A DNA stretch of 46,071 bases from Candidatus Cloacimonadota bacterium. GTDB taxonomy: Bacteria > Cloacimonadota > Cloacimonadia > Cloacimonadales > WRIO01. Below are positions 10,802-36,814 of this stretch, piece after piece (position 1 is the first letter of the stretch; the number at the start of each line of letters is the position of its first letter). The DNA lies in NCBI GenBank assembly GCA_009777575.1, contig WRLO01000020.1, positions 1 to 46,071 of the forward strand, read 5' to 3'. Below the pieces are notes generated by a model. That model saw only the letters and a program-made list of their open reading frames with translations. It was not told the DNA's origin and made no database searches. Made by a program: the position numbers and the translations under genes.

Positions 10802-10869
10802 ATTTTCCATTCTCCATTTAGAAATAATGGTTTGATAGAATACAATGCCACCAAAACAAATACTTATTC

Positions 10870-10905
10870 CGATAAGAATCATGATTGGTAGAAAATGATT
10901 ATCTT
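10870..10905 (+). repeat. palindrome + GGTAGAAAATGA linker module
   Basis: A short palindrome-like ATTCCGATAAGAAT is followed by CATGATTGGTAGAAAATGATTAT. It matches the modular dispersed repeats near 17.9, 18.9, 28.9, 38.3 and 39.3 kb. Confidence 0.5.
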
Positions 10906-10927
10906 ATGATAGTCCTATTTTTATCCC

Positions 10928-10997
10928 CCATTCTCAATTCTTAATTCTCAATTCTTAATTCTTAATTCTCAATTCTTAATTCTCAATTTTTAATTCA
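10928..10997. repeat. heptamer tandem array A (10 units, AATTC type)
   Basis: Ten consecutive 7-base units with no length change: CCATTCT, CAATTCT, TAATTCT, CAATTCT, TAATTCT (twice), CAATTCT, TAATTCT, CAATTTT, TAATTCA. The last unit contains the stop codon (TGA on the minus strand, 10995-10997) of the PNGase-like gene. The first unit belongs to the CCATT subfamily seen at 12.7, 19.0, 21.9 and 24.4 kb, which links the two subfamilies. Confidence 0.95.
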
Positions 10998-12668
10998 CTT
11001 CAAAAATATTACTTGTGCCTCTATTTTATGAAATGGCTCCCATGTTTCCCCTCGATGATGATTTATATAATCATCAGGATGGTAAGATATCCTCAATTCC
11101 CCGTCCTTTATATATTCATCCAAATTAATTTCCCATGCATGAACCACATCACCTGGCGCCCAGCCAGCCCTATCAAATTTCCATGTTCCATCTTGAGGTC
11201 GACATGGATTTAAATAATTATCTGTTCGCCACAATAGATTGTGATATTCATTTCCATTTATATATACCCATCTGTCTGAAGGTCTAAATTCTGCTGCATT
11301 CTCGTAGTTCGGATGCATTCCATGCCCACTTGTAACTATTCTGAATATTGCTGATTTTGTCTCTGAAGGGATTGGTATATGAAAATCTTCAAATAAATCT
11401 TTCATTGGTTCTTCAGGGTGACCATACTCAAAATTGCCAGACCATAACTGTTCAACTGCGAACGCTCTATTTTCCACTGGACCTTGGTAAAAATCCAGCA
11501 AGGTTGTCACTTGCCAACCTTTTTGCTCGGAAGGGTCTTCAGTAACTGGTTCCCATGTACTTATATGCGCAAAAATGTCTTTATAGCCTTGAAATAATGG
11601 TAAAAAATGGCTTACATCTACTTTCCATAAATATGGTCTTCGATATGGAGTGATATAACGCAATATCTCATATCGTGTTCCTTCTTCATCGATGAGATAA
11701 ATACTCGCACCCACATCCCAGTCTGAAACACCACCTTCCGGACCGCTCAAATCTAAAGTCATTATTACCTTATCAGCTGTCAATGTGATCTCTGGAAAAT
11801 ATACATTGATTGTCATGTTTTGCTGTTGAGAGTGAAAGACGCCTCCCTCAAGCAATAATACACTTTCCAATAACTCAAACTCTGGAGCATTACCTTTGCA
11901 AAGATAGGAAAAACTCTCAAGGATAACTGTTGTTGTTAATTCTCCTGTTGAAGCACCAAACACGGCTTGTTTCTTATATTGTGTCATTTCAGGGATAAAA
12001 TAGTTCTCGATGATTAATGTATCTTGGATCGCTAAACTTATCATAGCTCCTGCTGTGACATATCTGATTGTCAAATCAAATGTATTGATTTCTGAACCCA
12101 TCGGACTCGCTCTAAATTCAACTGGAGACATCATTTTATAAATTTCTTTACTATCCCAATGAAGTGAAATCTCGCGTTCTTCACGACCATAAAAATTTCC
12201 CCATTCATCAAACCAATGGGATGTTTGTGGATTGTATACATCGATTCCTAAACCAAATGAACCTTTGAAATTGGGACTTTCCCATGAAAATGTTTCTAAT
12301 TCTACTATGTCGTAAAAATTAGTTTCTTCTTCTTCGCTAAATAAATCTGTATTGACCAAAGAAAAACCTACACCTTCTGCGCCACGAGATATATACAAAT
12401 TGAAAGTATAATGCTCGATTTCTGATTTCTCTTCTATGATTTCTGGAAAAACTACTGCATTATTATGGTTTCTGGCGCGACCACCCTGCATGAGCTGAAG
12501 ATAATTGTTTGTAACTTCAGGTCCCAAACGACCTTTAATGTTTTTCAGTATCAAACTATTGTTATCTTCTTCATTTGAAAAATCATATTGTTTAAAATGA
12601 TATGATATTGCAGTGATATTAACTGCCAATATCAAAAACAATAAAATTAAAACATGTTTTTTTTTCAT
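10995..12668 (-). CDS. PNGase F-like peptide:N-glycosidase with N-terminal lectin-like domain
   Basis: A 557-residue secreted protein with signal peptide (KKKHVLILLFLILAVNITA). Residues ~25-255 look like an L-type lectin/concanavalin-like jelly roll ('ISRGAEGVGFSLVN', 'GSFGLGIDVYNPQ', 'INTFDLTIRYVTAGAMISLAI'). Residues ~265-557 match the two-domain PNGase F fold: 'DWDVGASIYLIDEEGTRYEILRYITPYRRP' (316-344), 'GWQVTTLLDFYQG' (384-396), 'TSGHG' (446-450), 'NAAEF' (457-461) and 'GTWKFDRAGWAPGD'. By alignment from memory, Asp318 and Glu460 correspond to the catalytic Asp60 and Glu206 of PNGase F, which cleaves N-glycans from glycoprotein asparagines. The usual Cys in 'AGWCPG' is Ala here. There is no sorting tail, so the protein may be periplasmic or exported otherwise. 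The stop codon lies inside a heptamer array. Confidence 0.8.
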   Translation of the reverse strand: MKKKHVLILLFLILAVNITAISYHFKQYDFSNEEDNNSLILKNIKGRLGPEVTNNYLQLMQGGRARNHNNAVVFPEIIEEKSEIEHYTFNLYISRGAEGVGFSLVNTDLFSEEEETNFYDIVELETFSWESPNFKGSFGLGIDVYNPQTSHWFDEWGNFYGREEREISLHWDSKEIYKMMSPVEFRASPMGSEINTFDLTIRYVTAGAMISLAIQDTLIIENYFIPEMTQYKKQAVFGASTGELTTTVILESFSYLCKGNAPEFELLESVLLLEGGVFHSQQQNMTINVYFPEITLTADKVIMTLDLSGPEGGVSDWDVGASIYLIDEEGTRYEILRYITPYRRPYLWKVDVSHFLPLFQGYKDIFAHISTWEPVTEDPSEQKGWQVTTLLDFYQGPVENRAFAVEQLWSGNFEYGHPEEPMKDLFEDFHIPIPSETKSAIFRIVTSGHGMHPNYENAAEFRPSDRWVYINGNEYHNLLWRTDNYLNPCRPQDGTWKFDRAGWAPGDVVHAWEINLDEYIKDGELRISYHPDDYINHHRGETWEPFHKIEAQVIFLK

Positions 12669-12731
12669 TAAAATCTCCTTTTTTTATTCTCTGCCACCTT
12701 CCCTGCCACCTTGAAAATATCTTAAAATTCT

Positions 12732-13102
12732 CCATTTTCCATTCTCCATTATCCATTCCCCATTATCCATTATCCATTTTCCATTATCCATTATCCATTA
12801 TCCATTATCCATTTTCCATTTTCCATTTTCCATTATCCATTATCCATTTTCCATTATCCATTATCCATTTTCCATTATCCATTATCCATTTTTCATTTTC
12901 CATTTTCCATTATCCATTATCCATTTCCCATTATCCATTATCCATTATCCATTTTCCATTTTCCATTTCCCATTTTCCATTATCCATTATCCATTATCCA
13001 TTTTCCATTTTCCATTATCCATTATCCATTATCCATTCTCCATTCTCCATTCTCCATTATCCATTATCCATTCTCCATTATCCATTCTCCATTCTCCATT
13101 CC
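12732..13102. repeat. heptamer tandem array B (53 units, CCATT type)
   Basis: A continuous run of 7-base units of the form CCATT followed by AT, TT, CT or CC. The length, 371 bases, is exactly 53 units. It ends at 13102, directly abutting the stop codon (13103-13105) of the protease gene on the minus strand. A few units carry single substitutions, for example TCATTTT. The short stretch 12669-12731 before it contains two CTGCCACCTTCC-like copies and nothing else recognisable. Confidence 0.95.
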
Positions 13103-16100
13103 CTACTTCAACAACACCATTCTCCTTGTTATATTCTCTCCTCCAGCTTTTAGGCGATAAAGATAGACACCGCTTGCTACTTTTTGTCCATTATCATTCA
13201 TACCATTCCAGACTATTTCATGGTGACCGGCTTCCAAGGTTTCATTGACTATTGTTTTGACTTTTTGTCCTCTGATATTGAATATTTCCAAAATTACCGC
13301 TCCTGCACGAGGAACTGTATACAATATCGTAGTTTCGGGGTTGAAAGGATTAGGGAAATTTTGCAATGATATTTCATAAATAGGGGGGATAGTTTCATTT
13401 TCCTCTTCATCATCTTCAAAATTATATAAGATAGCGTAAATTTCATTTAATATTTCGTAGTATTCTAGATAGGTAGTAGGTTTATAAACTGAATCCATCG
13501 GCATATTCCTTTCTCCTGTCTCAGAGGCTCTTAAATAGGCATAAGCTTGGTTTCCCGCAGCTATCAAGCGATGATGTTCATCGAGTGCGTCGATAGCTAT
13601 TAAATTGCCATATTGGTTCACTGAATTGGCATAATCAGCTGCAAATAAATGCGTCACTGCCATAGCTTCTTGAACACTTATGTATAGATCATCTTCGTCT
13701 ATCTTTGCTAAATAATTTAACAATGTATCATAATCATCGTCTATAGAACGAACAAGATACGGTAGTTTTGATATTGACATATTGGCATAGATTGAGTTTG
13801 GATAGGTTTCTATCAAATCTAAAAGATTATCTCTTCCATCTTCATAATTTCCACCAGATATCAGGTTGATGGAGACTAAATACATTTCTGCTTCTATAGA
13901 AATAGATTGACCAGTGAAATCAAAACTATGATAACTTGGATGAAAACGCGTAGGGTCGCTACGATCTATGTTCAGGTTGACACAATTTAGTTGTCCTTCA
14001 AATTCCCCCATTGCCATCAGTAAATATCTGTTTTTATAGTTTGGATATGGCAAAGAATCTGAGATAGTAGGAAAATTTTCTAAGATATTATCTCGTGTAA
14101 AGGTCAACCATCTCTGACCAATACCCTCTAACTCGGCTCGATGATTGTTTCTGATAATAGTATTATTCGCTAATGTTGAATGACCAGAATCAGCAAATCC
14201 TACTCCAGTATTGTTCTCTATGATAGTGTTTTTAAGGTATACTGATGAGGAAAAAGTCCGCAACCCATTGCCATCATTACCAGCTATTGTTACACGATTA
14301 AAATGATTTACAGCTGAGGACGCTCGAAAAATTATTCCAAACTGACCATTGTCCAAGATAGTAGAATCTGTAATATTTATATTCGATTCCAATACATAGA
14401 TACCTTGTAAATTGTTACTATAATTCATGTTGTTTATATTGGCAAAAGAGTCATAATAAATACCTATACTCCTTACATTGTTAATGTCTATGTCTTGCAT
14501 AACAAGATTTGAATTATCTAATGAAATAAGAACAATTCCGCTGATATTACCTCTTAATATACCCCCATCTTCACAATTTACAAAATAAATTCCCTCCCAC
14601 CTATAACCTTCGGGATTTGTGATGATGGTCTGCTCGCTAAAATCGATAGAGCTTTCATGGATTAATATATGATCGCCACCTATAGTGTTTCCACCACGAA
14701 AACTCGGTGTTAATATTATAGGTGTATAATATTCTGTTATCAACTTATCATACATTAGTGATCTGTTATGCCCCAATATTTCTACTTCGTTGAGAGTCAC
14801 AAATTTACTGTCCTCAAAAAATTGAATAGAACTTCCACCCTCAAGGATTATTTGACCACCATCCTTAGTAAATTCAGAATTGTAAAATATCACACTCCCT
14901 TTATCTTTGATTTCCAAGATAGTATTATTCAGGATGAGCTCGCTGTCGTCTTCAAAGACGATAGTGCTGCCCTCATTTATTACATGGATAACCGAGTTGT
15001 TCGCAGTCACTCCTGAATCAGATATATATATTGAAGCACCTGATAAAACTTCAATCAAACCGCCATTATTAAAACTTAGTGAACTTCCATTGAGAATTTC
15101 CATATTAGCACCGTTTGAGATGGTAATAGAACCATTGTTTTCAAAGTTATCATAATCATCATATATTAAACCACGGATTTGATCATTAAAATTTATATGA
15201 CTTCCTTGCATCATCTTAAATGAGCTACCCTCATCATTAATAAATATTAACCCAGATTCTACATGGATAACACTGTTGATTAATTCAAGACTTCCACCAG
15301 AAAATATTTCTATTGAATAAGATTCAAAATTGACAACACTATTAATTATAGACAAGGTAGCATTGTTATGAATTATCATGTTTTTATCTACATTTATTGT
15401 TTCATCTAAAATAGTTGTATCATCATCTATGACTATATGATTGCTTTCAAACATATTTTTTATGGCTGAAAAGATGTTTAATCTTCCTCCTGTTATCGTA
15501 ATATCTTGCAGATCATCTAAAGGATCTACTGATTCTAACAGATAATTTTTCATTGACAATGCTAATTCACCCGGGTTTGTTCTGAACTGCCTTAACCTAT
15601 TTTCACTTGTAGCTCTATACATTAGAGCTATAGCGCCTGATACTTGAGGTGCTGATAATGAAGTTCCTATTTGATTAATATATGGAGTGGGAGGAAAAAC
15701 TGTAGATCTGACATCAGTCCCAGGTGCTCCTAAAGCAACATTTTGAGCACCCCAGCCTGAAATTGGATATTTTTCATCTTTGTTAGTTGTGTTTGTCACT
15801 ACTATCTTGTATTGTGAATTTAATGAAGGAGGGAAAAAATGGTTATCTCCGATATCTATATCAATTCCTGCATTGGGTGCTGTCATTATCGTCAATACTC
15901 CAATACTACCTAAATTGTCTATTAATATCTTGAATTTGTTGTTGTTGGGAATATTAGGATGTGGAGATGCCATAGAAATATTTATTGCAACTATATGTGC
16001 CCCTCTTTGTCCACCTGATTCATTATATTCCTGTCTGAAAGCATGAACATATTTGAATGCAGCTTCAAAATTATCAGTACTTTGGACTCTGATAGGCAAA

Positions 16101-17020
16101 ATTTTTATATTTCTATCTTTTCCTGAAATCCCGCTTATGCCAATAGCATCATTTCCATTTGCTGCAATGATCCCGCTTACCATAGTACCATGAAAATCAT
16201 CTTGTTGCCCTGTTTGGACATATCTGTTATTATCGACGAAATTCCATCCTTGTATATCATCGATATATCCGTTACCATCATCATCGATACCGTTTCCAAG
16301 ACCAGTATCCTCACCAGGATTTACCCACCAATTTATCTCATCGTTTGTTAATCTAAATCCTCCATGTTGCCCTCCGTCAAAAACAGCTATCACTATTTCT
16401 CGATTGTTCTTGTTGGGTATAGAGTCCATATAATGCCAACCCAATGTAGCTTTTATATCTGCACCTGCATCGCCCGGATAAAGAATACCAGTAATTGAGC
16501 TTTCTACATATTGCCCTGTGTTTTTTAAAGCCCATTGATTTACAAACTCAGGATCATTGGGAATGAATTCACCTTGCTCTATGTGATAGCCTAAAGTATC
16601 TGGTGGAGGACTATATGGAACATAATTTGGATCTGTAAAAACCCTAGGTATTCCCGGCTCTATAATATTGTCATACAAAAACGCGGGAGGGCTTGGAATA
16701 GTCATATTAGCACTCTGTATAGCATCCATAACACGACTGTCTTGCCTAAGAAACTCCAAAAATGCCGCATCGTCTTCGTTGGGGACTAATTTGGGGTTAT
16801 ATGTTATAGTAAGACTAGTACCGTCCCAGTTTCTATAATATGAGTAACGAGTTACTTTCAAATCGAAATCTGAATATGTGTCCATGAAAGCTTCAATCCC
16901 ACTTTCTTGAACTTCTCCGAATAGCGTAATGCTTGCACTACCTGGAATTGGCTGTGCCATCCAACTTGAGATACACACAATGATTAGCAAAACTGCTAAT
17001 AAATAATTCTTATTTTTCAT
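13103..17020 (-). CDS. subtilisin-like S8 protease with beta-helix and type IX-like sorting tail
   Basis: A 1305-residue secreted protease. Signal peptide 1-22; propeptide-like region 28-~150 ('ITLFGEVQESGIEAFMDTYSDFDLKVTR ...'); S8 catalytic domain ~160-520 with Asp215 (AVFDGGQHG), His277 (DDFHGTMVSG) and Ser454 (IGTSLSAPQVSG), and Asn383 as the likely oxyanion residue. A parallel beta-helix follows (~525-985) with many 'NNTIIENNTGVGF'-style rungs of Asn and Ile, then a helical TPR-like region (~1060-1200), and finally a sorting domain (NFPNPFNPETTILY ... FNIRGQKVKTIVNE ... SGVYLYRLKAGG ... RRMVLLK). The D-G-G context of the catalytic Asp differs from the usual D-T/S-G. It likely degrades or processes protein at the cell surface. 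Two N-terminal paralogues with matching promoter and leader lie just upstream. The stop codon abuts heptamer array B. Confidence 0.9.
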   Translation of the reverse strand: MKNKNYLLAVLLIIVCISSWMAQPIPGSASITLFGEVQESGIEAFMDTYSDFDLKVTRYSYYRNWDGTSLTITYNPKLVPNEDDAAFLEFLRQDSRVMDAIQSANMTIPSPPAFLYDNIIEPGIPRVFTDPNYVPYSPPPDTLGYHIEQGEFIPNDPEFVNQWALKNTGQYVESSITGILYPGDAGADIKATLGWHYMDSIPNKNNREIVIAVFDGGQHGGFRLTNDEINWWVNPGEDTGLGNGIDDDGNGYIDDIQGWNFVDNNRYVQTGQQDDFHGTMVSGIIAANGNDAIGISGISGKDRNIKILPIRVQSTDNFEAAFKYVHAFRQEYNESGGQRGAHIVAINISMASPHPNIPNNNKFKILIDNLGSIGVLTIMTAPNAGIDIDIGDNHFFPPSLNSQYKIVVTNTTNKDEKYPISGWGAQNVALGAPGTDVRSTVFPPTPYINQIGTSLSAPQVSGAIALMYRATSENRLRQFRTNPGELALSMKNYLLESVDPLDDLQDITITGGRLNIFSAIKNMFESNHIVIDDDTTILDETINVDKNMIIHNNATLSIINSVVNFESYSIEIFSGGSLELINSVIHVESGLIFINDEGSSFKMMQGSHINFNDQIRGLIYDDYDNFENNGSITISNGANMEILNGSSLSFNNGGLIEVLSGASIYISDSGVTANNSVIHVINEGSTIVFEDDSELILNNTILEIKDKGSVIFYNSEFTKDGGQIILEGGSSIQFFEDSKFVTLNEVEILGHNRSLMYDKLITEYYTPIILTPSFRGGNTIGGDHILIHESSIDFSEQTIITNPEGYRWEGIYFVNCEDGGILRGNISGIVLISLDNSNLVMQDIDINNVRSIGIYYDSFANINNMNYSNNLQGIYVLESNINITDSTILDNGQFGIIFRASSAVNHFNRVTIAGNDGNGLRTFSSSVYLKNTIIENNTGVGFADSGHSTLANNTIIRNNHRAELEGIGQRWLTFTRDNILENFPTISDSLPYPNYKNRYLLMAMGEFEGQLNCVNLNIDRSDPTRFHPSYHSFDFTGQSISIEAEMYLVSINLISGGNYEDGRDNLLDLIETYPNSIYANMSISKLPYLVRSIDDDYDTLLNYLAKIDEDDLYISVQEAMAVTHLFAADYANSVNQYGNLIAIDALDEHHRLIAAGNQAYAYLRASETGERNMPMDSVYKPTTYLEYYEILNEIYAILYNFEDDEEENETIPPIYEISLQNFPNPFNPETTILYTVPRAGAVILEIFNIRGQKVKTIVNETLEAGHHEIVWNGMNDNGQKVASGVYLYRLKAGGENITRRMVLLK

Positions 17021-17067
17021 AATTTACTCCTTTGCTCTTTTTAGGCGAGCTACCCTGATTTTTTTTG

Positions 17068-17127
17068 CTCAAAAATATGATAAACATATTTTTTGAGACA
17101 TTATTTTATTTATACAGTTCTTGTCAA
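17068..17127 (-). promoter_or_regulatory. promoter and 5' hairpin of the S8 protease gene
   Basis: On the minus strand TTGACA (17127-17122) is followed after 17 bases by ATAATG (17104-17099), a fair sigma-70-type promoter. Immediately downstream an inverted repeat, CTCAAAAAATATG / CATATTTTTGAG (17097-17068), would sit at the very 5' end of the mRNA. The leader then reads GGGTAGCTCGCCTAAAAAGAGCAAAGGAG before the ATG. The same block occurs upstream of both truncated paralogues. Confidence 0.6.
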
Positions 17128-17736
17128 CACATTTTCAAAATTCCATATTTTTTCATTTATCCAACAGTTTATATCATCGTTTATTACAGTACCGAACCCA
17201 TAATCTAATACCGCTATAGAAATTTCTCTATCATTCTTGTTAGGTATAATATCTAGCATAGACCATGATTTTTCTAAACCTAAAGTACTAAAATACCATG
17301 GGTTGTTGGAGGCATTCATACCTTGTATGTTCAATAATTGCTCTTCATTTTCATCATTTTTGAGTTCCGGTCTAGGATCTCTGATTCTTAGTTCATTATT
17401 AAGGTTGCGTATGGTACCTCCTCTCTCCGGTATACGAGCATTTCTAACTTTAGGATCTTCTTTTAATCTTTCTACAAATGCAGCATGATCATCTACTAAA
17501 TCGCTTTCATAAGTGAAACCGAACAAATTAAGACTTCGAAAAAGACTACCAAAAAGTTTTAACCCATATTCTTCATAACTAGCGACAAAGATTTCGAGTT
17601 TTTCAGCATCAACATCTTCTGCTAACCATATTGTTAAATATCCCAGACTATGTGTTTCAGCTTCATAAGCTAACAATCCACATATACTTAAAGCTAAGAT
17701 CAGCAAAATCGCTAATAAAAAATTCTTGTTTTTCAT
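17110..17736 (-). pseudogene. truncated S8 protease paralogue (propeptide and start of catalytic domain)
   Basis: A 208-residue reading frame with signal peptide (KNKNFLLAILLILALSICGLLA), a diverged propeptide-like region, and the first catalytic-domain strand with the Asp motif ('NDREISIAVLDYGFGTVINDDINCWINE', comparable to 'NNREIVIAVFDGG' of the full-length protease). It ends before His and Ser. The last residues (ENVLTRTV) are encoded by the promoter block of the downstream full-length gene, so the truncation point is a duplication junction. Unlike the other paralogue, it is well diverged from the intact protease. It cannot be an active protease. A residual role as a secreted propeptide-type inhibitor is possible but unproven. 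Confidence 0.75.
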
Positions 17737-17784
17737 AATTTACTCCTTTGCTCTTTTTAGGCGAGCTACCCTGATTTTTTTTTA

Positions 17785-17844
17785 CTCAAAAACATGATAA
17801 ACATATTTTTTGAGACACTATTTTTTTATGTTGTTCTTGTCAAC
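17785..17844 (-). promoter_or_regulatory. second copy of protease promoter and 5' hairpin
   Basis: This is a near-copy of the block upstream of the full-length protease: TTGACA (17844-17839, minus strand), then the CTCAAAAAATATG / CATGTTTTTGAG hairpin (17814-17785), then the same GGGTAGCTCGCC...AAAGGAG leader to the ATG at 17736. It would drive the diverged truncated paralogue. Confidence 0.55.
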
Positions 17845-17892
17845 ACATTTATTATTGCTGTTATATCAATCAATTTAATGTTTTTTTCTTTT

Positions 17893-17959
17893 TTATTCCT
17901 TAGGAATAATGGCTTGGTAGAAAACGATACCACCTCAACCGATCCTTACTCCGCTAGGA
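17893..17959 (+). repeat. palindrome + GGTAGAAAACGA linker module
   Basis: ATTCCTTAGGAAT (palindromic) is followed by AATGGCTTGGTAGAAAACGAT and a further TACTCCGCTAGGA half-module. It is the same family as at 18.9 and 39.3 kb. Its end is interrupted by the MITE-like element that follows. Confidence 0.6.
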
Positions 17960-18178
17960 GTCCTCTCCGAAAAGTATATTAATAAAATTTTACCTTACAT
18001 AAGCCTCTTAGGTATGTGAAGCTAGGTAGAAAATGATGTAAAACCACAAAACCGCATCCCGTAGGGATGCAACCAATCAATTGGCACATTTTGTAGCATC
18101 CCTAAAAGATGCAACATGGTGCATATATTCCTTTCTACAGAGCTAACATTTCTACGCAAATGACTTTTCGGAGAGCAC
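17960..18178. mobile_element. MITE-like element, copy 1 (219 bp)
   Basis: Terminal inverted repeats GTCCTCTCCGAAAAGT (17960-17975) and ACTTTTCGGAGAGCAC (18163-18178) match at 15 of 16 positions. The inside holds palindromes (GCATCCCGTAGGGATGC) and the linker GGTAGAAAATGATG, with no coding capacity. The 12-base sequence ACTCCGCTAGGA flanks both sides (17948-17959 and 18177-18188, overlapping the end of the right repeat by two bases), as a target-site duplication would. A second copy lies at 28801-29016. Confidence 0.7.
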
Positions 18179-18203
18179 TCCGCTAGGAATAATGCTTCCA
18201 TAG

Positions 18204-18716
18204 CTATCTGTCCAGAATTATGTAAATTCCATTGCTCATCAAAAAAGCATCATTGGGAATGAATTCACCTTGCTCTATGTGATAGCCTAAAGTATCTGGT
18301 GGAGGACTATATGGAACATAATTTGGATCTGTAAAAACCCTAGGTATTCCCGGCTCTATAACATTGTCATACAAAAACGCTGGAGGGCTTGGAATAGTCA
18401 AATTAGCATTCTGTATAACATCCATAACACGACTGTCTTGTCTAAGAAACTCCAAAAATGCCGCTTCGTCTTCGTTGGGGACTAATTTGGGATTATATGT
18501 TATAGTAAGAGTAGTACCATCCCAATTTCTATAATATGAGTTACGAGTTGCTTTCAAATCGAAATCTGAATATGTATCCATGAAAGTTTCAATCTCACTT
18601 TCATGAACTTCTCCGAATAGCGTAACGATTGCGCTACCTGGAATTGGCTGTGCCATCAAACTTGAGATACACACAATGATTAGCAAAAATGCTAATAAAT
18701 AATTCTTATTTTTCAT
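18204..18716 (-). pseudogene. truncated near-identical copy of the S8 protease N-terminus
   Basis: A 170-residue frame whose first ~155 residues are nearly identical to those of the full-length protease (same signal peptide and propeptide, with changes such as EVHESEIETF for EVQESGIEAF). After 'EGEFIPNDAF'-type sequence it leaves homology (LMSNGIYIILDR) before any catalytic residue. The upstream promoter and leader are also copied. This is a recent partial duplication. It still encodes an intact signal peptide plus propeptide, so it could in principle yield a secreted inhibitor or chaperone of the protease. More simply, it is debris. Confidence 0.8.
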
Positions 18717-18763
18717 AATTTACTCCTTTGCTCTTTTTAGGCGAGCTACCATGATTTTTTTTA

Positions 18764-18822
18764 CTCATAAACATGATAAACATATTTTTTGAGACACTAT
18801 TATTCTTATATTGTTTTGTCAA
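18764..18822 (-). promoter_or_regulatory. third copy of protease promoter and 5' hairpin
   Basis: TTGACA (18822-18817, minus strand) and the hairpin CTCAAAAAATATG / CATGTTTATGAG (18793-18764) precede the same leader with AAAGGAG before the ATG at 18716. Spacing to the -10-like TAATAG is shorter than in the other copies, so this promoter may be weaker. Confidence 0.5.
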
Positions 18823-18875
18823 TATATTTATAATTGCTGTTATATCAATCAATTTAATATTTTTTTCTATTTTTT

Positions 18876-18970
18876 ATTCCGCTTAGGAATTCAATCTTTA
18901 TAGAAAACGATGCCACCCCAACCTATCATTATTCCGCTGAGGAATTCAGGTTGGTAGAAAATTATTATCT
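18876..18970 (+). repeat. two tandem palindrome + TAGAAAA linker modules
   Basis: ATTCCGCTTAGGAATTC followed by ATCTTTATAGAAAACGATGCC, and ATTCCGCTGAGGAATTC followed by AGGTTGGTAGAAAATTATTATC. Each unit is a palindromic arm plus an A-rich linker. They form part of the gene-free stretch 18717-18994. Confidence 0.65.
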
Positions 18971-18994
18971 CATGATAGTCCTATTCCCCCTCCC

Positions 18995-19414
<420 letters not shown>

Positions 19415-19417
19415 CAA

Positions 19418-20593
19418 CTACCCCTTCACCACTGCCAGTGGACTCAATTCAATCTTTATTTTCACTAAATCGTTTTGTAAAGCCATCACTTCTATTATAT
19501 CTTTATATGCAGATGATGCCTCTTCTAAATCATTTCTACTTCTTATCGAATGTAATATTCCGAGTTTGTCAAGTTTGTTCTTTTCCGCTTCCAGATTCAG
19601 ATTTTTTATGGCTGCTGTTCGGCTCATAACTCTACCTGCTCCATGCGAACAACTTGTAAAACTTTCAGGATTTCCCAAACCTTCGACTATATATGATTTT
19701 GTGCCTTGTGAACCCGGAACGATACCTATTTCTCCGAGTTTAGCTGATGTAGCTCCCTTTCTATGAACTATCACTTTCTTGCCAAAATGTTCCTCAATTG
19801 CTGCATAATTATGGGCTATATTTATGATCGGTTGATAAGCTATATCTTTTAAAAATGAAGATGTTACTTGTTGTATCCTTTCTATCATCAATTTTCTATT
19901 TGCCAAAGCAAATTCTGTAGAATATTTCATTTCTTCATGGTAGAGTTGTCCTTCTTTTGAGTCAAAGAGTAAATATGCTAAATCGACTTTAGCTTCTACT
20001 TTATACACATTGTTTTGTTGATTTATCTTTTTCGCTAAATTGTTGTAATATTCTGCAACTTTAAAACCAAAATTTCGACTTCCAGAGTGAACCATTATCC
20101 ATAGATAACCTTTATCAGACTTCTGAAACTCTATAAAATGGTTGCCTCCTCCGAGTGTTCCAAGTTGTTTCAAAGCCCTCGAATACTCTTGTTTTACTAT
20201 CACGAGTTTATCTACCTGATACCCTTGGGGCATGAGATTTTCACCTTGATTTTGTTTGTGATGATTAAAACCTAAAGGTATTACCTCACGCACTCCTTTC
20301 ATTATTTTTGTCAATTGCTCCCGAGAAAGACTATCTGCCAAAACATTGGTTTCCACTGCACACATGCCACATCCTATATCGACTCCTACTGCATTCGGGA
20401 CTATTACATCTTCGGATGCCAATACTCCACCGATAGGCATTCCATAACCTTGATGCGTGTCTGGCATCAAGCATATATGTTTAAAGGCAAATGGCAAATT
20501 GGCTAAGTTTCGCGCTTGTTCTAAAGCTCCTTTTTCGGGTTCAGTTAACCACATTTTTATGGGTAGTTTTTCTGTAGTTATAACTTTTTCCAT
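19418..20593 (-). CDS. rtcB: RtcB-family RNA ligase
   Basis: A 391-residue RNA-splicing/repair ligase that joins 2',3'-cyclic phosphate (or 3'-phosphate) and 5'-OH RNA ends using GTP and Mn2+. Visible motifs: MPDTHQGYGMPIGG (43-56), VDIGCGM (71-77, metal-binding Asp and Cys), GTLGGGNHFIEF, MVHSGSRNFG, IAHNYA, HRKGATSA, GSQGTKSYIV and the guanylate-accepting His motif SHGAGRVMSR. The GSMGT motif has Gln in place of Met. The length suits the short bacterial form. It lies 20 bases downstream of the PPi-phosphofructokinase gene and is probably co-transcribed. No rtcA or archease gene is nearby. Its stop codon sits three bases from heptamer array C. Confidence 0.95.
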   Translation of the reverse strand: MEKVITTEKLPIKMWLTEPEKGALEQARNLANLPFAFKHICLMPDTHQGYGMPIGGVLASEDVIVPNAVGVDIGCGMCAVETNVLADSLSREQLTKIMKGVREVIPLGFNHHKQNQGENLMPQGYQVDKLVIVKQEYSRALKQLGTLGGGNHFIEFQKSDKGYLWIMVHSGSRNFGFKVAEYYNNLAKKINQQNNVYKVEAKVDLAYLLFDSKEGQLYHEEMKYSTEFALANRKLMIERIQQVTSSFLKDIAYQPIINIAHNYAAIEEHFGKKVIVHRKGATSAKLGEIGIVPGSQGTKSYIVEGLGNPESFTSCSHGAGRVMSRTAAIKNLNLEAEKNKLDKLGILHSIRSRNDLEEASSAYKDIIEVMALQNDLVKIKIELSPLAVVKG

Positions 20594-20613
20594 TGATTTT
20601 GTCCTATTGCAAA

Positions 20614-21831
20614 TTATTTCCTCAATATTTTTTCAACTTTAGGAGCATTCAATCTATGAGCTTGCATAAATCCAGAACCTATCAAGGGGCGACAATACAT
20701 TAAAAATGAACTCGTTATATTATTACCCTCTTGATTGATAAAATCATCTGGCATTAACCTTGTCTTTGCTGCTATTTGTTCCAATGCCACAGGTTTATAA
20801 TCTACTGAATAATTCCCTATTCTTTGAATTGCTACTGAGCAATCATAATCATTCCATATACCAAAATGTGCTGCCTTTTCACCGGCTTCTCTCGCTTCAT
20901 GCTGATCTACATCACTTATACAAGACGGAAATGACCTTTGTAAATAACCAAATGTATCACTGCGAACTCTTTGTAATCCAAGTTTTGATTTTATCAAATT
21001 GGAAAGCAAATCACCTAACATAGCTGAACCAGAAAGTTGTACATTGCCATGTTGATCTTTTTCAACATTTTCTGACATTTTTACTGCTATTGGTGTTCCA
21101 TTTTCATCACAAATACCCTCTGATACTGCTATTACGCACCTACCATATCTATTATAGGTTTCATGAACATCATCCAAAAACTTTTCTATACGGAATATCC
21201 TTTCGGGTAAATATATCAAGTGCGGTCCATCATCTGGATACTTTTTTGCTAGTGATGCTGCGGCTGTCAAAAAACCAGCATGACGACCCATTACGATTCC
21301 TATATATATACCCGGTAAAGCTCGATTGTCGAGGTTTGCTCCGATAAATGCTTCGGCTACAAAACGAGCTGCAGAACCATAGCCTGGCGTATGGTCGTTG
21401 CATACTAAATCATTGTCTATTGTTTTAGGGATGTGTATGGTTCGTAAATTGTATTCTGAATGCCTCGCAAATTCGTTTACCAGACGAACCGTATCTGAAC
21501 TATCATTACCCCCTATATAAAAAAAGTATCTTATTTCATGGGCTTTTAAAACACTCACGATATCCTTGCAATAATTCATATCAGGCTTGTCACGAGTTGA
21601 TAACAAAGCACTTGATGGTGTGGTTGCAACACTTTCAAGATTGTGTGTTGTCTCCAATGTTAAATCCACAAAATCCTCATTTATGATCCCACGAACTCCC
21701 TTTAATGCTCCATATACTTTTGATATATGCGGAAATTTACGAGATTCAAGGACTACGCCTACTAAAGATTGATTGATGACTGCTGTAGGTCCGCCACCTT
21801 GCGCTATCAATACTTTTCCAGATGTTCTCAT
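20614..21831 (-). CDS. pfp: diphosphate-dependent 6-phosphofructokinase
   Basis: A 405-residue phosphofructokinase-A superfamily enzyme that phosphorylates fructose 6-phosphate in glycolysis. The N-terminal GGGPTAVINQSL phosphate loop, the 'YIGGNDSSDT' motif (ATP enzymes have GGDGS) and 'IPKTIDNDL' (Lys where ATP enzymes have Gly) point to pyrophosphate as the donor. 'GIVMGRHAGFLTAAASLA' and 'PERIF' provide substrate-binding residues. PPi use saves ATP and fits a fermentative anaerobe; the cofactor choice is inferred from motifs. It is first of a likely pair with rtcB. The start at 21831 is preceded by GGAGGAATAAG. Confidence 0.9.
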   Translation of the reverse strand: MRTSGKVLIAQGGGPTAVINQSLVGVVLESRKFPHISKVYGALKGVRGIINEDFVDLTLETTHNLESVATTPSSALLSTRDKPDMNYCKDIVSVLKAHEIRYFFYIGGNDSSDTVRLVNEFARHSEYNLRTIHIPKTIDNDLVCNDHTPGYGSAARFVAEAFIGANLDNRALPGIYIGIVMGRHAGFLTAAASLAKKYPDDGPHLIYLPERIFRIEKFLDDVHETYNRYGRCVIAVSEGICDENGTPIAVKMSENVEKDQHGNVQLSGSAMLGDLLSNLIKSKLGLQRVRSDTFGYLQRSFPSCISDVDQHEAREAGEKAAHFGIWNDYDCSVAIQRIGNYSVDYKPVALEQIAAKTRLMPDDFINQEGNNITSSFLMYCRPLIGSGFMQAHRLNAPKVEKILRK

Positions 21832-21914
21832 CTTATTCCTCCATTGAAATCTTTTTTATTTTTTTTTTCATTATCTGCCCCCCCCTTCATATGGGCAGGT
21901 AGGGGAGGGGATTT

Positions 21915-21963
21915 CCATTCTCCATTTTCCATTATCCATTTTCCATTTTCCATTATCCATTCC
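21915..21963. repeat. heptamer tandem array D (7 units, CCATT type)
   Basis: Seven units (CCATTCT, CCATTTT, CCATTAT, CCATTTT twice, CCATTAT, CCATTCC), then a degenerate CCATCGT. The stop codon of the PfkB-type gene (21953-21955) lies inside a CCATTAT unit, so the last few residues (MGNG) are encoded by the array. Confidence 0.92.
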
Positions 21964-22852
21964 CCATCGTCATTTTCAACTTCTCAACCCTCTCCTCAAT
22001 TTCTCTCAAAGTAGCCTCTTCGAGCTTATCAAAGCTAAAAGACTCTATGTTAAATGAAGCTGTTATTGTGCCATAAAGCATTGCTTGTTTGATAGTGTCC
22101 GGATTAAATTTTCCCATTTTTGAGATATAACCCATAAAACCGCCTGCAAAGGAATCTCCCGCTCCGGTTGGGTCAAACACATTTCTGATCACATAAATTG
22201 GAACAAAAAACAGGAACGATTTGCTATAGGCAAATGCTCCATATTCGCCTCTTTTGACTATTACATAATCTGGTCCCCACTCCAAAACATCGTCTGCTGC
22301 ATCAAATACATTGTTTTTTCCAGTTAAAAGTTTTATTTCGTCTTCGTTGATAAAAAGTATATTGACCTTTTGTATCACTTCTTTCAACAATTCTGGTGTG
22401 CTTTGTATCCAGTAATTCATTGTGTCACAGGATATAATTTCAGCGTTTGGAGCTTCTTTTATTACATCCATTTGGAGTTGAGGGTGGATATTACCTAAAA
22501 ATAGGTATTTTGTGGTTTTATATATTTTAGGTAATTTGGGAACAAAATCTGCAAATACATTAAGTTGAGTATCAAGCGTTTCTGCTCGATTTAAATCGTT
22601 GTATTTTCCTTTCCAACGAAATGTTTTTCCTTTTACTTTTTCAAGTCCTTTTAAATCGATTCCATAATTTTCCAACAAAAAACAAGTTTCTTCTGGATAA
22701 TCTTCCCCTATCACTCCCACTATCCCGACTTGTGTAAATTTTGCTGCAGCTATTGATGCATATATTGCTGATCCACCCATTGAATTTTCTCTTCTTCCAG
22801 ATGGTGTCTCTATATCATCTATCGCTACTGATCCTACGATAACTAATCTCAT
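21953..22852 (-). CDS. PfkB-family carbohydrate/nucleoside kinase
   Basis: A 299-residue ribokinase-fold kinase. It has the N-terminal substrate-binding Gly motif ('GGSAIYASIAAAKF', ~26-39), the 'LFINEDEIKLLTG' segment typical of the family, and the C-terminal signature with catalytic Asp 'DPTGAGDSFAGGFMGY' (~226-241). The sugar or nucleoside substrate cannot be told from sequence. The protein is cytoplasmic. The start is preceded by AAAGGAGAATAATATG. It follows a 52-residue membrane-protein gene by 13 bases, so the two are probably co-transcribed. Its C-terminal residues and stop codon are encoded by heptamer repeat sequence, a sign that the array grew into or arose from the gene's end. Confidence 0.9.
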   Translation of the reverse strand: MRLVIVGSVAIDDIETPSGRRENSMGGSAIYASIAAAKFTQVGIVGVIGEDYPEETCFLLENYGIDLKGLEKVKGKTFRWKGKYNDLNRAETLDTQLNVFADFVPKLPKIYKTTKYLFLGNIHPQLQMDVIKEAPNAEIISCDTMNYWIQSTPELLKEVIQKVNILFINEDEIKLLTGKNNVFDAADDVLEWGPDYVIVKRGEYGAFAYSKSFLFFVPIYVIRNVFDPTGAGDSFAGGFMGYISKMGKFNPDTIKQAMLYGTITASFNIESFSFDKLEEATLREIEERVEKLKMTMGNG

Positions 22853-22865
22853 ATTATTCTCCTTT

Positions 22866-23024
22866 TTATTTAAACAACCATAAAATATTATCGAAGTTTA
22901 TGCTTGTATAACCCATTACTATACTAAATATGAATATACATATTACTAATTTTATCAATATTCCAAATCTTGGATTGCGATTTTTATATCGTCTGTATTC
23001 GGTTCGTTCTTTAAATACTTTCAT
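22866..23024 (-). CDS. small single-span membrane protein
   Basis: A 52-residue protein starting at MKVFKERTEYRRYKNR, chosen because AAGGAAA lies 6-8 bases upstream. A longer in-frame start would run into repeat sequence. It has a strongly basic, Tyr/Arg-rich cytosolic N-terminus followed by one membrane span (FGILIKLVICIFIFSIVMGY) and a short tail. Size and topology recall small septum or secretion accessory proteins, but no family is recognised. It lies directly downstream of the 63-65-nt repeat array and upstream of the PfkB-type gene. Confidence 0.6.
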   Translation of the reverse strand: MKVFKERTEYRRYKNRNPRFGILIKLVICIFIFSIVMGYTSINFDNILWLFK

Positions 23025-23054
23025 AATCTTTTCCTTGTTCTGCACTCCCTTCCC

Positions 23055-23495
23055 CGTCGTTGCGAGGTTTCTTCTTATTATCCTCACGAAGCAATCTCAG
23101 TGCCACTACTCCCATCCCGTCGTTGCGAGGTTTCTTCTTATTATCCTCACGAAGCAATCTCCGTGCCACTACTCCCATCCCGTCGTTGCGAGGTCCCTCC
23201 CTTGAATCACCCACCGAAGCAATCTCCGTGTCACTACTCACATCCCGTCGTTGCGAGGTACCTCCCTTGAATCACCCACCGAAGCAATCTCCGTGCCACT
23301 ACTCACATCCCGTCGTTGCGAGGTTTCTTCTTATTATCCTCACGAAGCAATCTCCGTGCCACTACCCCCATCCCGTCGTTGCGAGGTCCCTCCCTTGAAT
23401 CACCCACCGAAGCAATCTCCGTGCCACTACCCCCATCCCGTCGTTGCGAGGTCCCTCCCTTGAATCACCCACCGAAGCAATCTCCGTGTCACTAC
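23055..23495. repeat. 63-65-nt tandem repeat array G (7 units)
   Basis: Units begin with CGTCGTTGCGAGGT at 23055, 23118, 23181, 23246, 23311, 23374 and 23439 and end with CGAAGCAATCTCCGTGCCACTAC. Two middle variants alternate: a 63-nt form (TTTCTTCTTATTATCCTCA) and a 65-nt form (CCCTCCCTTGAATCACCCAC). The array ends 30 bases upstream of the small membrane-protein start codon. All six frames show open stretches here, but these are periodic artefacts. A degenerate remnant (CATCGTTGCGAAGTCCCTCA) lies at about 24349-24368, and a second array at 37970-38230. Confidence 0.93.
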
Positions 23496-23505
23496 TTGGG
23501 ATATT

Positions 23506-23554
23506 CAATTCTCAATTCTTAATTCTTAATTCTTAATTCTTAATTCTTAATTCT
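23506..23554. repeat. heptamer tandem array E (7 units, AATTC type)
   Basis: Two CAATTCT and five TAATTCT units, exactly 49 bases. The stop codon of the outer-membrane protein gene (23554-23556) begins on the last base of the array, whose next bases continue the unit pattern. Confidence 0.93.
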
Positions 23555-24315
23555 TAAAACTGATATCTCATCCCAATACTCAAGGTCAATCCATTAAAAC
23601 TCGTATTCGGAGCATCTACAAGTTCTTGTGAATGACCTGTATTGATGATAGTCCAATCATTTATTGCTAAACCTATCATATAGCCAAGCTCTGTGTTTAA
23701 ATTGATGTTTTTTGTTAAACCGTAGTTTGCCTCAAACTTGGGCTGGATCAAGGTATATTGCTTTAAAATAGTAGCATTAAAATGTTTAAAATCAAGAAAA
23801 AAATCTAAATCATCCCAACCGCTTAAACCAAAACGAAGATCCATGCTTGTTATTTGAAGCCTATGCTCTCCATAACCGACCATCAAACTTGGTAAAATCT
23901 CTATTTTTTCGTTTAAATAGTATTTTCTACCAAGATTCGCTCCCGTAAAAAATATTGTATAATTCAATTTCCTTTCTTGGGATAATTCATCTAATCGTAT
24001 CACTGTAACTTTTTGTTTTGATTGACCGAAGGCACCTATAAAACCAAGAACATAGTTATTTTCCAGCCGCAGCATAATATCAGCTCCAAGCATTATTCTG
24101 CCTGAATCGTATATTTCATCGAACAAAAAACTTCTGGCTATATGATTTACATCTCTTAAATCTACAGCAAACCATAATGGATAAATACTGAAACTATCTA
24201 AAGAAATTTTCTTTGTCATAGTTTCATTGCTTGTTTCAGTGCAGAATATGTTCTGAACTAAAATAAAGAATAGAACGATTGTTATAAAAACAACCTTGTT
24301 TCTTATACTATACAT
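23554..24315 (-). CDS. predicted outer-membrane beta-barrel protein
   Basis: A 253-residue protein with an N-terminal signal peptide (NKVVFITIVLFFILVQNIFC, the Cys possibly a lipobox-like or cleavage residue), followed by alternating hydrophobic/polar strands ('RIMLGADIMLRLENNYVLGFIGAFG', 'LNYTIFFTGANLGRKYYL', 'INLNTELGYMIGLAIND', 'FNGLTLSIGMRYQF'). The C-terminal residue is Phe after alternating residues, the usual barrel-insertion signal. No named family is recognised. It is probably an 8- to 10-stranded barrel in the outer membrane. The gene stands alone between repeat arrays. Confidence 0.7.
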   Translation of the reverse strand: MYSIRNKVVFITIVLFFILVQNIFCTETSNETMTKKISLDSFSIYPLWFAVDLRDVNHIARSFLFDEIYDSGRIMLGADIMLRLENNYVLGFIGAFGQSKQKVTVIRLDELSQERKLNYTIFFTGANLGRKYYLNEKIEILPSLMVGYGEHRLQITSMDLRFGLSGWDDLDFFLDFKHFNATILKQYTLIQPKFEANYGLTKNINLNTELGYMIGLAINDWTIINTGHSQELVDAPNTSFNGLTLSIGMRYQF

Positions 24316-24372
24316 AGTTGTCTCCTTTCAATTCTCCCTCCTCTCCCCCATCGTTGCGAAGTCCCTCACTGT

Positions 24373-24428
24373 CCATTATCCATTATCCATTATCCATTTT
24401 CCATTATCCATTCTCAATTCTCCATTAA
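24373..24428. repeat. heptamer tandem array F (8 units, mixed CCATT/CAATT)
   Basis: CCATTAT (three), CCATTTT, CCATTAT, CCATTCT, CAATTCT, CCATTAA: 56 bases, in perfect 7-base register. A CAATT unit is embedded between CCATT units. The aminotransferase stop codon (24414-24416) lies within the array, and its last residues (LMEN) are array-encoded. Confidence 0.93.
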
Positions 24429-25619
24429 AATCGACAACCCTTCCTTAAACCTCCTCACTCCCTCTATTAAATTTTCTGTGCTATTTGCATAAGAAAACCT
24501 AACTATATCATCCATTCCAAAAGAATCTCCTCCAACAGCTGCTATATGGCATTTTTCGAGTAAATACAGAGACAGATCATTTGAGTTTTTTATCCCTATC
24601 TTGTTATTTTTTATATACCAGCTTATATTGGGAACTGCATAAAATGCTCCTTTAGGCTCCATACAGGTTACATTTGGTATATCTCGCAGGGCGTTAACTA
24701 AAAAATATTTACGTTTTTCAAATTCCATTCTCATCCTTTCCACAGAACCATCATCTTTTGTATATGCGGCTAAGGCTGCTTTTTGCGTAATTGAATTTAC
24801 ATTCGAGGCTGCATGTTCTTGGATTTTACCAGCTGCTTTGATTATATTGGTAGGACCAACACTAAATCCAAGTCGCCATCCTGTCATTGCAAAAGATTTT
24901 GAAACTCCATTAACGATGATTGTCCTTGCTTTCATTTCCTCAGAAATCTGAGCGATTGAAACAAATTCGGTGCCATCATATACCAATTTTTCATATATTT
25001 CATCAGATAAAACGCAAATATCATGCTTTATACAGACTTCTGCTATCTTTGACAATTCTTCTCTTGTATAAACAGCCCCTGTTGGATTATTCGGAGAATT
25101 CATTATCAACATCCTGATTTTCCCCTTTTCTTTAACACATTCTTCTATCTGCTCGGCTGTTATCTTGAAAGAATCTGCTTCATTTGTTTTCACATAAACT
25201 GGTTCACCACCAGTCAGCATTACTAAAGATGGATAACTCACCCAATAAGGTAATGGTATCAGGATTTTGTCACCAGGTTCGCAAACAGCCATTAATGAAT
25301 AAAAAAGTGAAGCTTTTGCACCCGCTGATACCAATATATCATCCGGCTGATACGATAATTCATTGTCTTTTTTGTATTTTTCACTGATTGCTTTACGAAG
25401 CTCCAGAATACCTGCATTGGCGGTATATCTTGTAAAATTGCTTTTTATCGCTTCTATACCTGCCTCTTTTATATAATCAGGCGTATTGAAATCTGGTTCT
25501 CCTACCCCAAAATTAATCACTTTGATTCCCTGAGATGCCATTTCCTTAGCTTTGTTATTCAAAGTCAAAGTTGGTGATGAGGGAATTATATTGATACGAC
25601 TTGCTACTCTTATTGACAT
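24414..25619 (-). CDS. aspC: class I PLP-dependent aspartate-type aminotransferase
   Basis: A 401-residue aminotransferase of the I-gamma/aspartate type, transferring amino groups between aspartate (or aromatic amino acids) and 2-oxoglutarate. Motifs: 'INFGVGEPDFNTPDYI' near the N-terminus, 'RYTANAGILELRKAI', 'SPNNPTGAVY' (Asn of the cofactor site), 'VLSDEIYEKLVYDG', the Schiff-base Lys in 'VNGVSKSFAMTGWRLG', and the substrate Arg in 'VRFSYANS'. Ribosome site GAGGTGTGTC. It begins ten bases after the pta stop, so the two form an operon with pta first. Exact substrate preference is not determinable. The C-terminus merges into heptamer array F. Confidence 0.9.
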   Translation of the reverse strand: MSIRVASRINIIPSSPTLTLNNKAKEMASQGIKVINFGVGEPDFNTPDYIKEAGIEAIKSNFTRYTANAGILELRKAISEKYKKDNELSYQPDDILVSAGAKASLFYSLMAVCEPGDKILIPLPYWVSYPSLVMLTGGEPVYVKTNEADSFKITAEQIEECVKEKGKIRMLIMNSPNNPTGAVYTREELSKIAEVCIKHDICVLSDEIYEKLVYDGTEFVSIAQISEEMKARTIIVNGVSKSFAMTGWRLGFSVGPTNIIKAAGKIQEHAASNVNSITQKAALAAYTKDDGSVERMRMEFEKRKYFLVNALRDIPNVTCMEPKGAFYAVPNISWYIKNNKIGIKNSNDLSLYLLEKCHIAAVGGDSFGMDDIVRFSYANSTENLIEGVRRFKEGLSILMEN

Positions 25620-35927: not shown

Positions 35928-36174
35928 ATGCCTAAAAAAGAAAGAATAAATCTTCAAGGAACTGAGGTAGTTTTACTATCGCATTAAAAATAAGATTATG
36001 TTTCCTTAACTGATATGGCGAGATTTAAATCCTGAAGCTATGGGCTTGGTTATATCTCATTGGTTAAGCTCACTTTATACTGTGGAATTTATGGGGTTGT
36101 GGGAAAAAGTAAACAACCCTATTTTTAATGTTATTGAAATCAGTAACAATAAAATGGAATCATTACAGCATTAG
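35928..36174 (+). pseudogene. KilA-N domain protein, broken remnant
   Basis: The plus strand reads MPKKERINLQGTEVVLLSH, then in-frame stops at 35985-35987 and 35991-35993, then DYVSLTDMARFK, then a frame change near 36027-36030, then 'NPEAMGLVISHWLSS...YTVEFMGLWEKVNNPIFNVIE'. This is the usual N-terminal half of KilA-N proteins ('VSLTDMA', 'VIxxWLxSxxTIEFLGLWExxxNPxF'), a DNA-binding domain common in phages and mobile elements. The C-terminal half is missing: at ~36174 the sequence joins tail-to-tail with a coupling-protein fragment. An intact ribosome site (AAAGGAG) precedes the ATG. Decay is evident and no function is expected. Confidence 0.85.
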
Positions 36175-36814
36175 CTTCAGGGCTATCGCCTAACAAATCC
36201 ATTATCATTTGCATATCCGATAAATCAAGAAACTCTTTTAATTTGTTGTTGTAAAAGAAGTCTTGCTTTACCTTTGTATCCTTTTTACCTTCACGAATGA
36301 AAGCGATAATAATTGCAGCTAATAAATCCCTCGCCGCATTAGGAAAGAAAGCATTTGTAGTATTCTTGGTTCTTTCTTCAAAAAACGATTTACATATTTC
36401 TTGAGTATTGATTATAAAATCATGTTCCTCCCAACCATCAGCAAGTATTTCTTTATAATTATTCCAAAGTTCTGACTGGGAAGAGTATTGCTTTGAGTTT
36501 CCTATCACCAAATCTGTATTTTTAGCGTAAAACTTATTATAAAAATCACCTTTGCTGTCAAAAATAATCATCACATCATCCTTGGACATATTTTTCTTTA
36601 TTTGAGAAACAAAATGATAAAATAGAGTAGTTTTGCCACAACCTGTCCCACCAATCAACATTGTATGTTTACTTAAATCTGTATTATTAAGCGTAAATGC
36701 TGATTGTCTTCCTGTATAAGTTCCTGTTAGTTTGACTTGATAATCATTGTTATTTACTGGTGGTTGATTATGGGTTACACTATTCCCTAATAATAATCTT
36801 GTTGATGGATTCAT
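36140..36814 (-). pseudogene. conjugative coupling protein (VirD4/TraD-TraG type), N-terminal fragment
   Basis: A 224-residue fragment beginning MNPSTRLLLGN with a good ribosome site (GGAGG, eight bases upstream). Walker A 'LIGGTGCGKTTLFYHF' (~72-87) and Walker B-like 'DVMIIFDSKGDFYNKFY' (~99-115) identify the ATPase domain of type IV secretion/conjugation coupling proteins that pump DNA. It stops at about one third to two fifths of the usual length. The last ten residues (from NAVMI) are read antisense through the KilA-N remnant, so the true break is near 36172. The matching C-terminal part lies 1.8 kb away on the upstream side (38584-39160), showing rearrangement. A longer in-frame reading upstream crosses the 28-bp array and is not taken as real. 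Confidence 0.82.

Follow-up and report, generated by a model that had tools for sequence, protein, structure and literature searches.

Heptamer arrays at six gene ends

We describe here a set of heptanucleotide tandem arrays in a 46,071-nucleotide (nt) stretch of DNA from Candidatus Cloacimonadota bacterium (assembly GCA_009777575.1, contig WRLO01000020.1), hereafter the window. It forms contig C20 of a draft genome that totals 3.76 Mb over 198 contigs. The arrays were called with Tandem Repeats Finder (TRF) at period 7, with which a direct reading of the letters agrees, and the position of each is given as a gap, the signed distance in nt between the edge of the array and the end of the stop. 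Six arrays, A to F, stand at the stops of six minus-strand genes, all six touching the stop or lying within 2 nt of it by both TRF and the sequence, as a preliminary description of this DNA had claimed. A unit of the AATKRRD type is on the gene's own strand in all six, and the single orientation relative to the gene reported there is likewise upheld.

Array and gene are on the minus strand in each case. Array A (10930..10996), with about 9.6 heptamers and the sense unit GAATTAA/GAATTGA, overlaps by 2 nt (gap -2) the TGA stop (10995-10997) of a gene at 10995..12668 encoding a Peptide-N-glycosidase F C-terminal domain (PF09113). Array B (12727..13100) has about 53 heptamers of the sense unit AATGGAT and variants, and follows with a gap of +2 nt the TAG stop of an S8 protease gene (13103..17020; PF00082 and PF13860), whose product has a FlgD/secretion C-terminal region ending in RMVLLK. 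Array C (18995..19415), with about 60 heptamers of the sense unit GATAATG, lies at a gap of +2 nt after the TAG stop of the gene for RtcB (19418..20593; 391 residues, PF01139, C-terminus AVVKG). Array D (21912..21967; about seven heptamers, gap -15) reaches into a PfkB-family kinase gene (21953..22852; 299 residues, assigned by Pfam) and gives it both its TAA stop (21953-21955) and its last codons (MGNG). Array E (23507..23557; about seven heptamers, sense unit GAATTAA) overlaps, at a gap of -4, the TAA stop of an open reading frame (ORF) at 23554..24315 that encodes a 253-residue protein of no assigned family with the C-terminus YQF. Array F (24372..24427; eight heptamers, gap -14) gives the stop (TGA, 24414-24416) and last codons (MEN) of a class I/II aminotransferase gene (24414..25619; 401 residues, assigned by Pfam).

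Some details of the preliminary description need adjustment. It had put the stop inside A, D and F, on the last base of E, directly against B and three bases from C; this stands for D and F, whereas A has only the 2-nt overlap, B and C both have 2-nt gaps, and the stop of E is inside the array by TRF. Five of the six genes have a Pfam family, all different, and the labels N-glycanase, S8 protease, RtcB, PfkB and aminotransferase are retained; the product of 23554-24315 has no Pfam match, and nothing beyond its YQF C-terminus is left for the label of outer-membrane protein. An Rfam scan of the window gave no match.

Truncation of genes by the arrays was tested for three genes and is excluded for these. 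Among the matches listed for the 299-residue PfkB kinase (119 homologues), 94 have 298 residues and 13 have 299; among those listed for the 401-residue aminotransferase (also 119 homologues), 92 have 399 or 400; and most of the 33 RtcB relatives among the matches listed align up to the last residue.

Under uniform placement of the arrays in their own spacers only 0.19 would be expected within 2 nt of a stop, against six of six, and the claim that the coincidence is beyond chance holds. A harder null, in which other repeats in the spacer are masked and the 60-150 nt before a start are forbidden, expects 3.5-4.3 of the six within 5 nt of the stop (p 0.002-0.03).

Placement and strand across the genome and its relatives

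For the rest of the genome we used an unbiased sample of 60 stretches of 20 kb (1.2 Mb) on 40 other contigs, picked regardless of arrays and with neighbours joined, in which genes were called by a simple six-mer model (934 genes, 86% coding, window included). The sample has 31 arrays outside the window, of which eight were dropped (six inside called genes and two with a single neighbour) to leave 23. Eleven of these touch a stop, 14 are within 5 nt of one and 17 within 25 nt, where uniform placement within the same spacer gives 0.2, 1.3 and 4.7 respectively; no array touches a start or lies within 5 nt of one, and a single array is within 25 nt. The comparison proposed in the preliminary description, of stops with starts and random intergenic points, therefore falls on the side of stops in the part of the genome on which it was run (14/23 at stops, 0/23 at starts). 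Period 7 accounts for 30 arrays, 24 of them outside called genes, and every other period from 4 to 13 for 0-5 arrays each. Two further sets, chosen by unit pattern, have 9/16 and 8/23 arrays within 5 nt of a stop, after the dropping of 6/22 from the first (two inside genes and four at edges, three of those four near stops) and of 7/30 from the second (one inside a gene and six at edges, none near a stop), together with one duplicate. The gene families at near-stop arrays differ from one another, and in the sample and window together 23 of 933 stops have an array.

The arrays form two classes by unit, class I of the TAATGGA/TAAGAAT kind and class II of the AAATTAY kind, and the stop placement is mainly a class I trait. 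Outside the window 22 of 29 class I arrays are within 5 nt of a stop, against 3.2 expected, a count that includes one array at a gene that is probably spurious (L239:3227-3394, 55 residues); in the unbiased sample alone the count is 10 of 11. All 28 class I arrays of this genome that lie within 10 nt of a stop (22 and the six of the window) are sense and none is antisense, although the 28 are not fully independent, because five of the near-stop genes end in MVLLK, a motif of secretion tails, and two arrays of one locus (L237) are about 1 kb apart. In tandem spacers, at any distance and with the window included, 27 class I arrays are sense and one is antisense, and the three within 25 nt of a start are all sense and each also near a stop. 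Class II has 12 of 30 arrays within 10 nt of a stop (3.4 expected) and, within 25 nt of a start, 10 of 30 against an expectation of 5.1, six of these ten being antisense and four sense; in tandem spacers seven are sense and ten antisense. We note that AAATTAY arrays at L245, L254, L257, L262, L263 and L264 lie 3-24 nt from starts, above expectation, and may be a separate class.

Of the 22 stop-adjacent class I arrays, 13.4-16.7 are expected under the hard null (p 1e-5 or less), and short spacers and the avoidance of starts therefore explain much of the closeness; the strand rule is not affected by spacing. Other dispersed intergenic repeats of the sample (265 blocks) favour stops little or not at all, with 31 touching a stop and 31 a start, and 62 versus 49 within 10 nt; these counts exceed the uniform null at both stops and starts, which we ascribe in part to the cutting of block ends at gene borders.

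Replication strand was considered as a cause of the strand rule and found insufficient. Gene strand matches GC skew in 74% of genes, and replication direction alone would therefore not give 28 of 28; the near-stop arrays match the local skew in 24 of 28. Purine loading was rejected as well: the sense strand is more than half purine in 94% of genes, yet over the 40 nt after array-less stops this falls to only 57% (n=509).

The link to stops is not local to the window, being found also in the 1.2 Mb sample and in a genome of the same family (G001), where the unit is TAGAAAT or TAAATTA. Contigs of G001 taken regardless of arrays (232 kb) contain 16 arrays; 8 of them lie within 5 nt of a stop, where 0.4 would be expected, and one is near a start. 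All other regions from relatives were chosen from pattern matches; in such a set from G001, 8 of 13 arrays are within 10 nt of a stop (0.5 expected). In other families of the order the stop placement is weak, with 9/41 (3.6 expected), 12/40 (6.6) and 1/9 (0.35) arrays within 10 nt. The near-stop class I arrays of the relatives are 24 sense and one antisense, and 3 versus 0 at contig edges. In the relatives' sets 24/67, 2/15 and 13/63 arrays stand at edges, and 2, 0, 10 and 10 lie inside called genes. The class I pattern was matched in 26 of 58 relatives and, among genomes from other groups that were found by way of RtcB, in 2 of 12.

In G001 (L194-L201 and L276-L295) a short palindrome, in most cases with a loop of 3 nt, comes directly after 27 of 33 arrays, versus 17% in shuffles. 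The palindromes occur in exchanged-stem versions, for example GTGC-GCAC and GTCC-GGAC, and five of seven close array pairs converge, as if a composite intergenic element had the arrays for its outer ends. In the window's own genome the flanks after arrays have a weak excess of stems, with a mean best stem of 2.8 versus 1.9 in shuffles and a stem of at least 7 in 2 of 28.

Maintenance and origin of the placement

The class I arrays lie mostly within 5 bases of a stop and on the message strand, and our tentative explanation, to which we give nearly even weight, is that they are kept there since the sense repeat terminates translation by itself. Polymerase slippage would create and extend the arrays, copying would spread them through the genome, and new copies in coding sequence, near starts or in reverse would mostly be purged by selection; the survivors would form unstructured, largely C-free 3' tails on messages. 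The reverse orientation would often be stopless and give C-rich RNA, and our guess at why it is purged combines these two features, the first for many units and the second for units of the TAATGGA kind, with the pairing that could occur between messages carrying opposite arrays. A unit-order test for recent slippage found a weak excess of identical neighbours in arrays B (p 0.05) and C (p 0.04); among the other arrays the excess is clear in a few and absent in most.

The stop content of the units fits a self-terminating repeat. These counts pool all genomes examined, and an array that overlaps the stop by at least 3 nt contains it by definition, which leaves the arrays that abut or barely overlap a stop as the informative set. 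Among the 44 of these, sense stops occur in one or more frames of 41 and in every frame of 30, versus 51% of random heptamers that carry a stop, and the opposite strand is without stops in 15. Among the 34 arrays that contain the stop, all three sense frames are stopped in 29 and the opposite strand is stopless in 17; overall, 59 of 78 near-stop arrays have every sense frame stopped. Since seven cannot be divided by three, a stop-bearing unit repeated three times stops every frame. Because the sense repeat carries stops, an array may touch or overrun a gene end and change one or two residues, as at the PfkB and aminotransferase genes.

Several observations weigh against this explanation. Where a spacer has 109 or more nt free of repeats, the array lies within 5 nt of the stop in 9 of 12 cases, versus 0.6-2.9 expected (L239 and four divergent spacers left out, array E of the window included, and spacer lengths copied by hand), and tolerance alone does not yield such hugging of the stop. 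In G001 the opposite strand of near-stop arrays also carries stops (16/16), and stop content therefore cannot cause the strand rule there, where class I is still seven sense versus none antisense. Some of the class II arrays near stops are without any sense stop, the arrays of other families are mostly more than 10 nt from a stop (32/41, 28/40 and 8/9), and in one of those relatives (G021) arrays touching starts are also in excess (6/40 versus 2.5 expected). We favour tolerated, self-terminating repeats over the targeting to stops suggested in the preliminary description, whose observations of arrays at stops, in one orientation and beyond a single locus stand, and whose interpretation is reduced to the extent that short spacers and start avoidance explain much of the closeness.

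A selected function at the 3' end, whether the array forms a fail-safe stop tract, signals decay or termination, or serves as a tail for ribosome release, seems unlikely to us but is the likeliest of the alternatives. It would account for the strand rule (28 versus 0), for sense stops in all three frames and for the presence of arrays at the 3' ends of differing gene families, but it is hard to reconcile with the small share of stops that have an array (23/933) and with the class II arrays near stops that have no sense stop, and in the portion of a 2019 paper (PMC6764699) used here, fail-safe stops are reported to be without evidence of selection in eubacteria. Folding also speaks against it. 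We folded four sense stretches, comprising three whole arrays and 149 nt of array B, and obtained 0, -0.4, -2.6 and 0 kcal/mol, none better than shuffles. With little or no structure, those four are therefore not hairpin terminators, and the GC hairpin and T run of intrinsic terminators are absent from the same four stretches, no dedicated scan for terminators having been made.

A rather unlikely account is that arrays are born at the stop itself, growing by slippage from the gene's stop heptamer (the stop codon and four bases), which would fix both place and strand. Short copies near stops give it some substance. Among 327 TAA stops with a spacer of at least 15 nt and no long array, TGGA comes next in 11 where 1.6 would be expected; a second copy of the stop heptamer at lag 7 (six or seven of seven bases) is present in 16 of 621 genes, compared with 2-7 at lags 3-6 and 8-21. 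Two-unit arrays outside the long arrays number 13 near stops, all sense and 7 of the 13 beginning 2 nt before the stop end; elsewhere there are 12 between genes, 2 near starts and 30 in coding sequence. These short copies are either seeds or remnants of lost arrays. Stop and unit share a register in 11 of 27 arrays, where about 3.9 would be expected, but register was rejected as a full explanation, as only 5 of the 16 arrays that do not supply their own stop are in register. The same few units are found at unrelated genes, which requires copying and not independent birth.

Directed insertion, in which a mobile or repeat-writing activity sets the array at stops with the 5' end of the unit toward the gene, is highly doubtful. 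It would suit the nine long-spacer arrays at the stop, the keeping of the usual gene ends, and the converging pairs and palindromes of G001, and candidate enzymes are encoded in the genome (G000): Y1 transposases with five matches, four above the cut-off, and reverse transcriptases with two. No enzyme is linked to the arrays, however; G001, which is only 64% complete, gave no Y1 match, and the sole fully read reverse transcriptase (L274:1252-2535) carries the maturase domain of group II introns. Neither a target duplication nor an empty site was noticed, and no systematic search for either was made.

We give almost no weight to an artefact of gene calling or assembly: the gene calls come from our own six-mer model, which produced the probably spurious L239 gene, and draft assemblies may mis-size arrays, but position and strand are independent of array length, Pfam matches support five of the six window genes and, among the 22 other near-stop class I genes, 17 of the 21 that were scanned (three only below the curated cut-off), and RtcB, PfkB and the aminotransferase align with homologues along their length.

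Comparison with known repeats and other repeats of the window

Heptanucleotide short tandemly repeated repetitive (STRR) sequences of cyanobacteria are tandem heptamer arrays between genes, and the preliminary comparison with them is fair in kind, since the arrays here are also heptamers between genes. The units are other ones, however, and the host is not a cyanobacterium: among the matches listed, the 14 PfkB and aminotransferase homologues with a printed organism are mostly from Cloacimonadota (10 Cloacimonetes/Cloacimonadota, three Marinimicrobia and one 'bacterium').

The preliminary description knew of no rule linking heptamers to stops, and one has in fact been published for Xanthomonas and Nostoc. 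In the portion of Rehm et al. 2015 (PMC4692102) on which we draw, the heptamers GGGAATC and GGGGA(T/C)T, of a quadruplex-forming class, are close to or overlap stops on the coding strand, or are upstream of genes on the other strand; they form convergent pairs in Xanthomonas, and are mostly transcribed, with a role that is not known. The arrays described here resemble them, as far as that portion goes, in being mainly intergenic heptamers at stops with the G-bearing strand as the coding strand, in forming convergent pairs (here in G001) and in being under-represented between divergent genes. They differ in that the consensus units (TAATGGA, TAAGAAT and TAGAAAT) are AT-rich with at most GG, although some variant units have GGGG; in that class I gaps are mostly 0-5 nt, where the bin used in that portion of the paper is 0-50 bp; and in that class I is without antisense arrays upstream of starts. 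Measured against the same portion, the placement rule has a published precedent, and what is new here is the units without three-G runs; literature naming the phylum Cloacimonadota has, among the matches listed, nothing on it.

Two other kinds of repeat bear comparison. According to the part of MacGregor 2015 (PMC4679880) considered here, TAACTGA direct repeats of Beggiatoaceae lie mostly just before starts in the main genome, and a few heptamer sets stand beside stops in other bacteria. Our arrays share with the TAACTGA repeats, so described, their occurrence as heptamers at many loci adjoining genes without a common function, and depart from them in that class I is at stops, with 1 of 23 arrays of the unbiased sample within 25 nt of a start and class II as the exception. 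For the repetitive extragenic palindromic (REP) sequences of E. coli, the section of the RepRanger paper (PMC12306157) used here gives 446 of 4,072 within 15 nt of a stop and cites ribosome-stalling effects. REPs and bacterial interspersed mosaic elements (BIMEs) are likewise dispersed intergenic repeats, but REPs are palindromes, as that section has them, and the folded arrays have little or no structure.

Among the simple repeats of bacteria, heptamers form a common and so far unexplained class. Two genomes of one family have the same place and strand with differing units (TAATGGA/TAAGAAT versus TAGAAAT) and without three-G runs, which argues against quadruplex formation as the general reason for the placement; it points instead to the message strand or to where translation ends. 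A broader idea, which we regard as a long shot, is that a general process in at least three phyla writes or places heptamers where reading frames end, in one set polarity that has the 5' end of the unit against the gene, and independently of quadruplexes. If true, stop codons would be a preferred landing or birth site for bacterial tandem repeats.

The sequence beyond the arrays is varied. A shared mobile body was considered and rejected: of 23 arrays, 16 are followed by sequence that is present again elsewhere, belonging to several repeat families, and 7 by sequence that is not. A search of plasmids with array C gave no match. A body of about 90 bp is common to the far sides of arrays A and C (10840-10925 and 18905-18985), with 'atgccacc' and 'atgatagtcctat' on the plus strand, and some arrays therefore border a longer dispersed repeat.

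The window has other repeats besides. A dispersed intergenic repeat of 64-65 bp (CGTTGCGAGG ... GAAGCAATCTCCGTG) is present in tandem copies at 23044-23496, where TRF finds about seven copies of a 65-bp unit, without assigned strand, that adjoin array E and are separate from it, and again at 38025-38199. In the sample and window together it has 77 core matches in 24 clusters, and in the 20 intergenic clusters the core is within 10 nt of a stop once and of a start once. At the contig end (45973-46058) a run of 22 G is accompanied by a 30-base A-rich run, possibly a sequencing or assembly artefact. At 36909-37621 about 25 copies of a 28-bp repeat overlap the first part of a minus-strand ORF (36140-37549), the later part of which matches type IV secretion coupling proteins.

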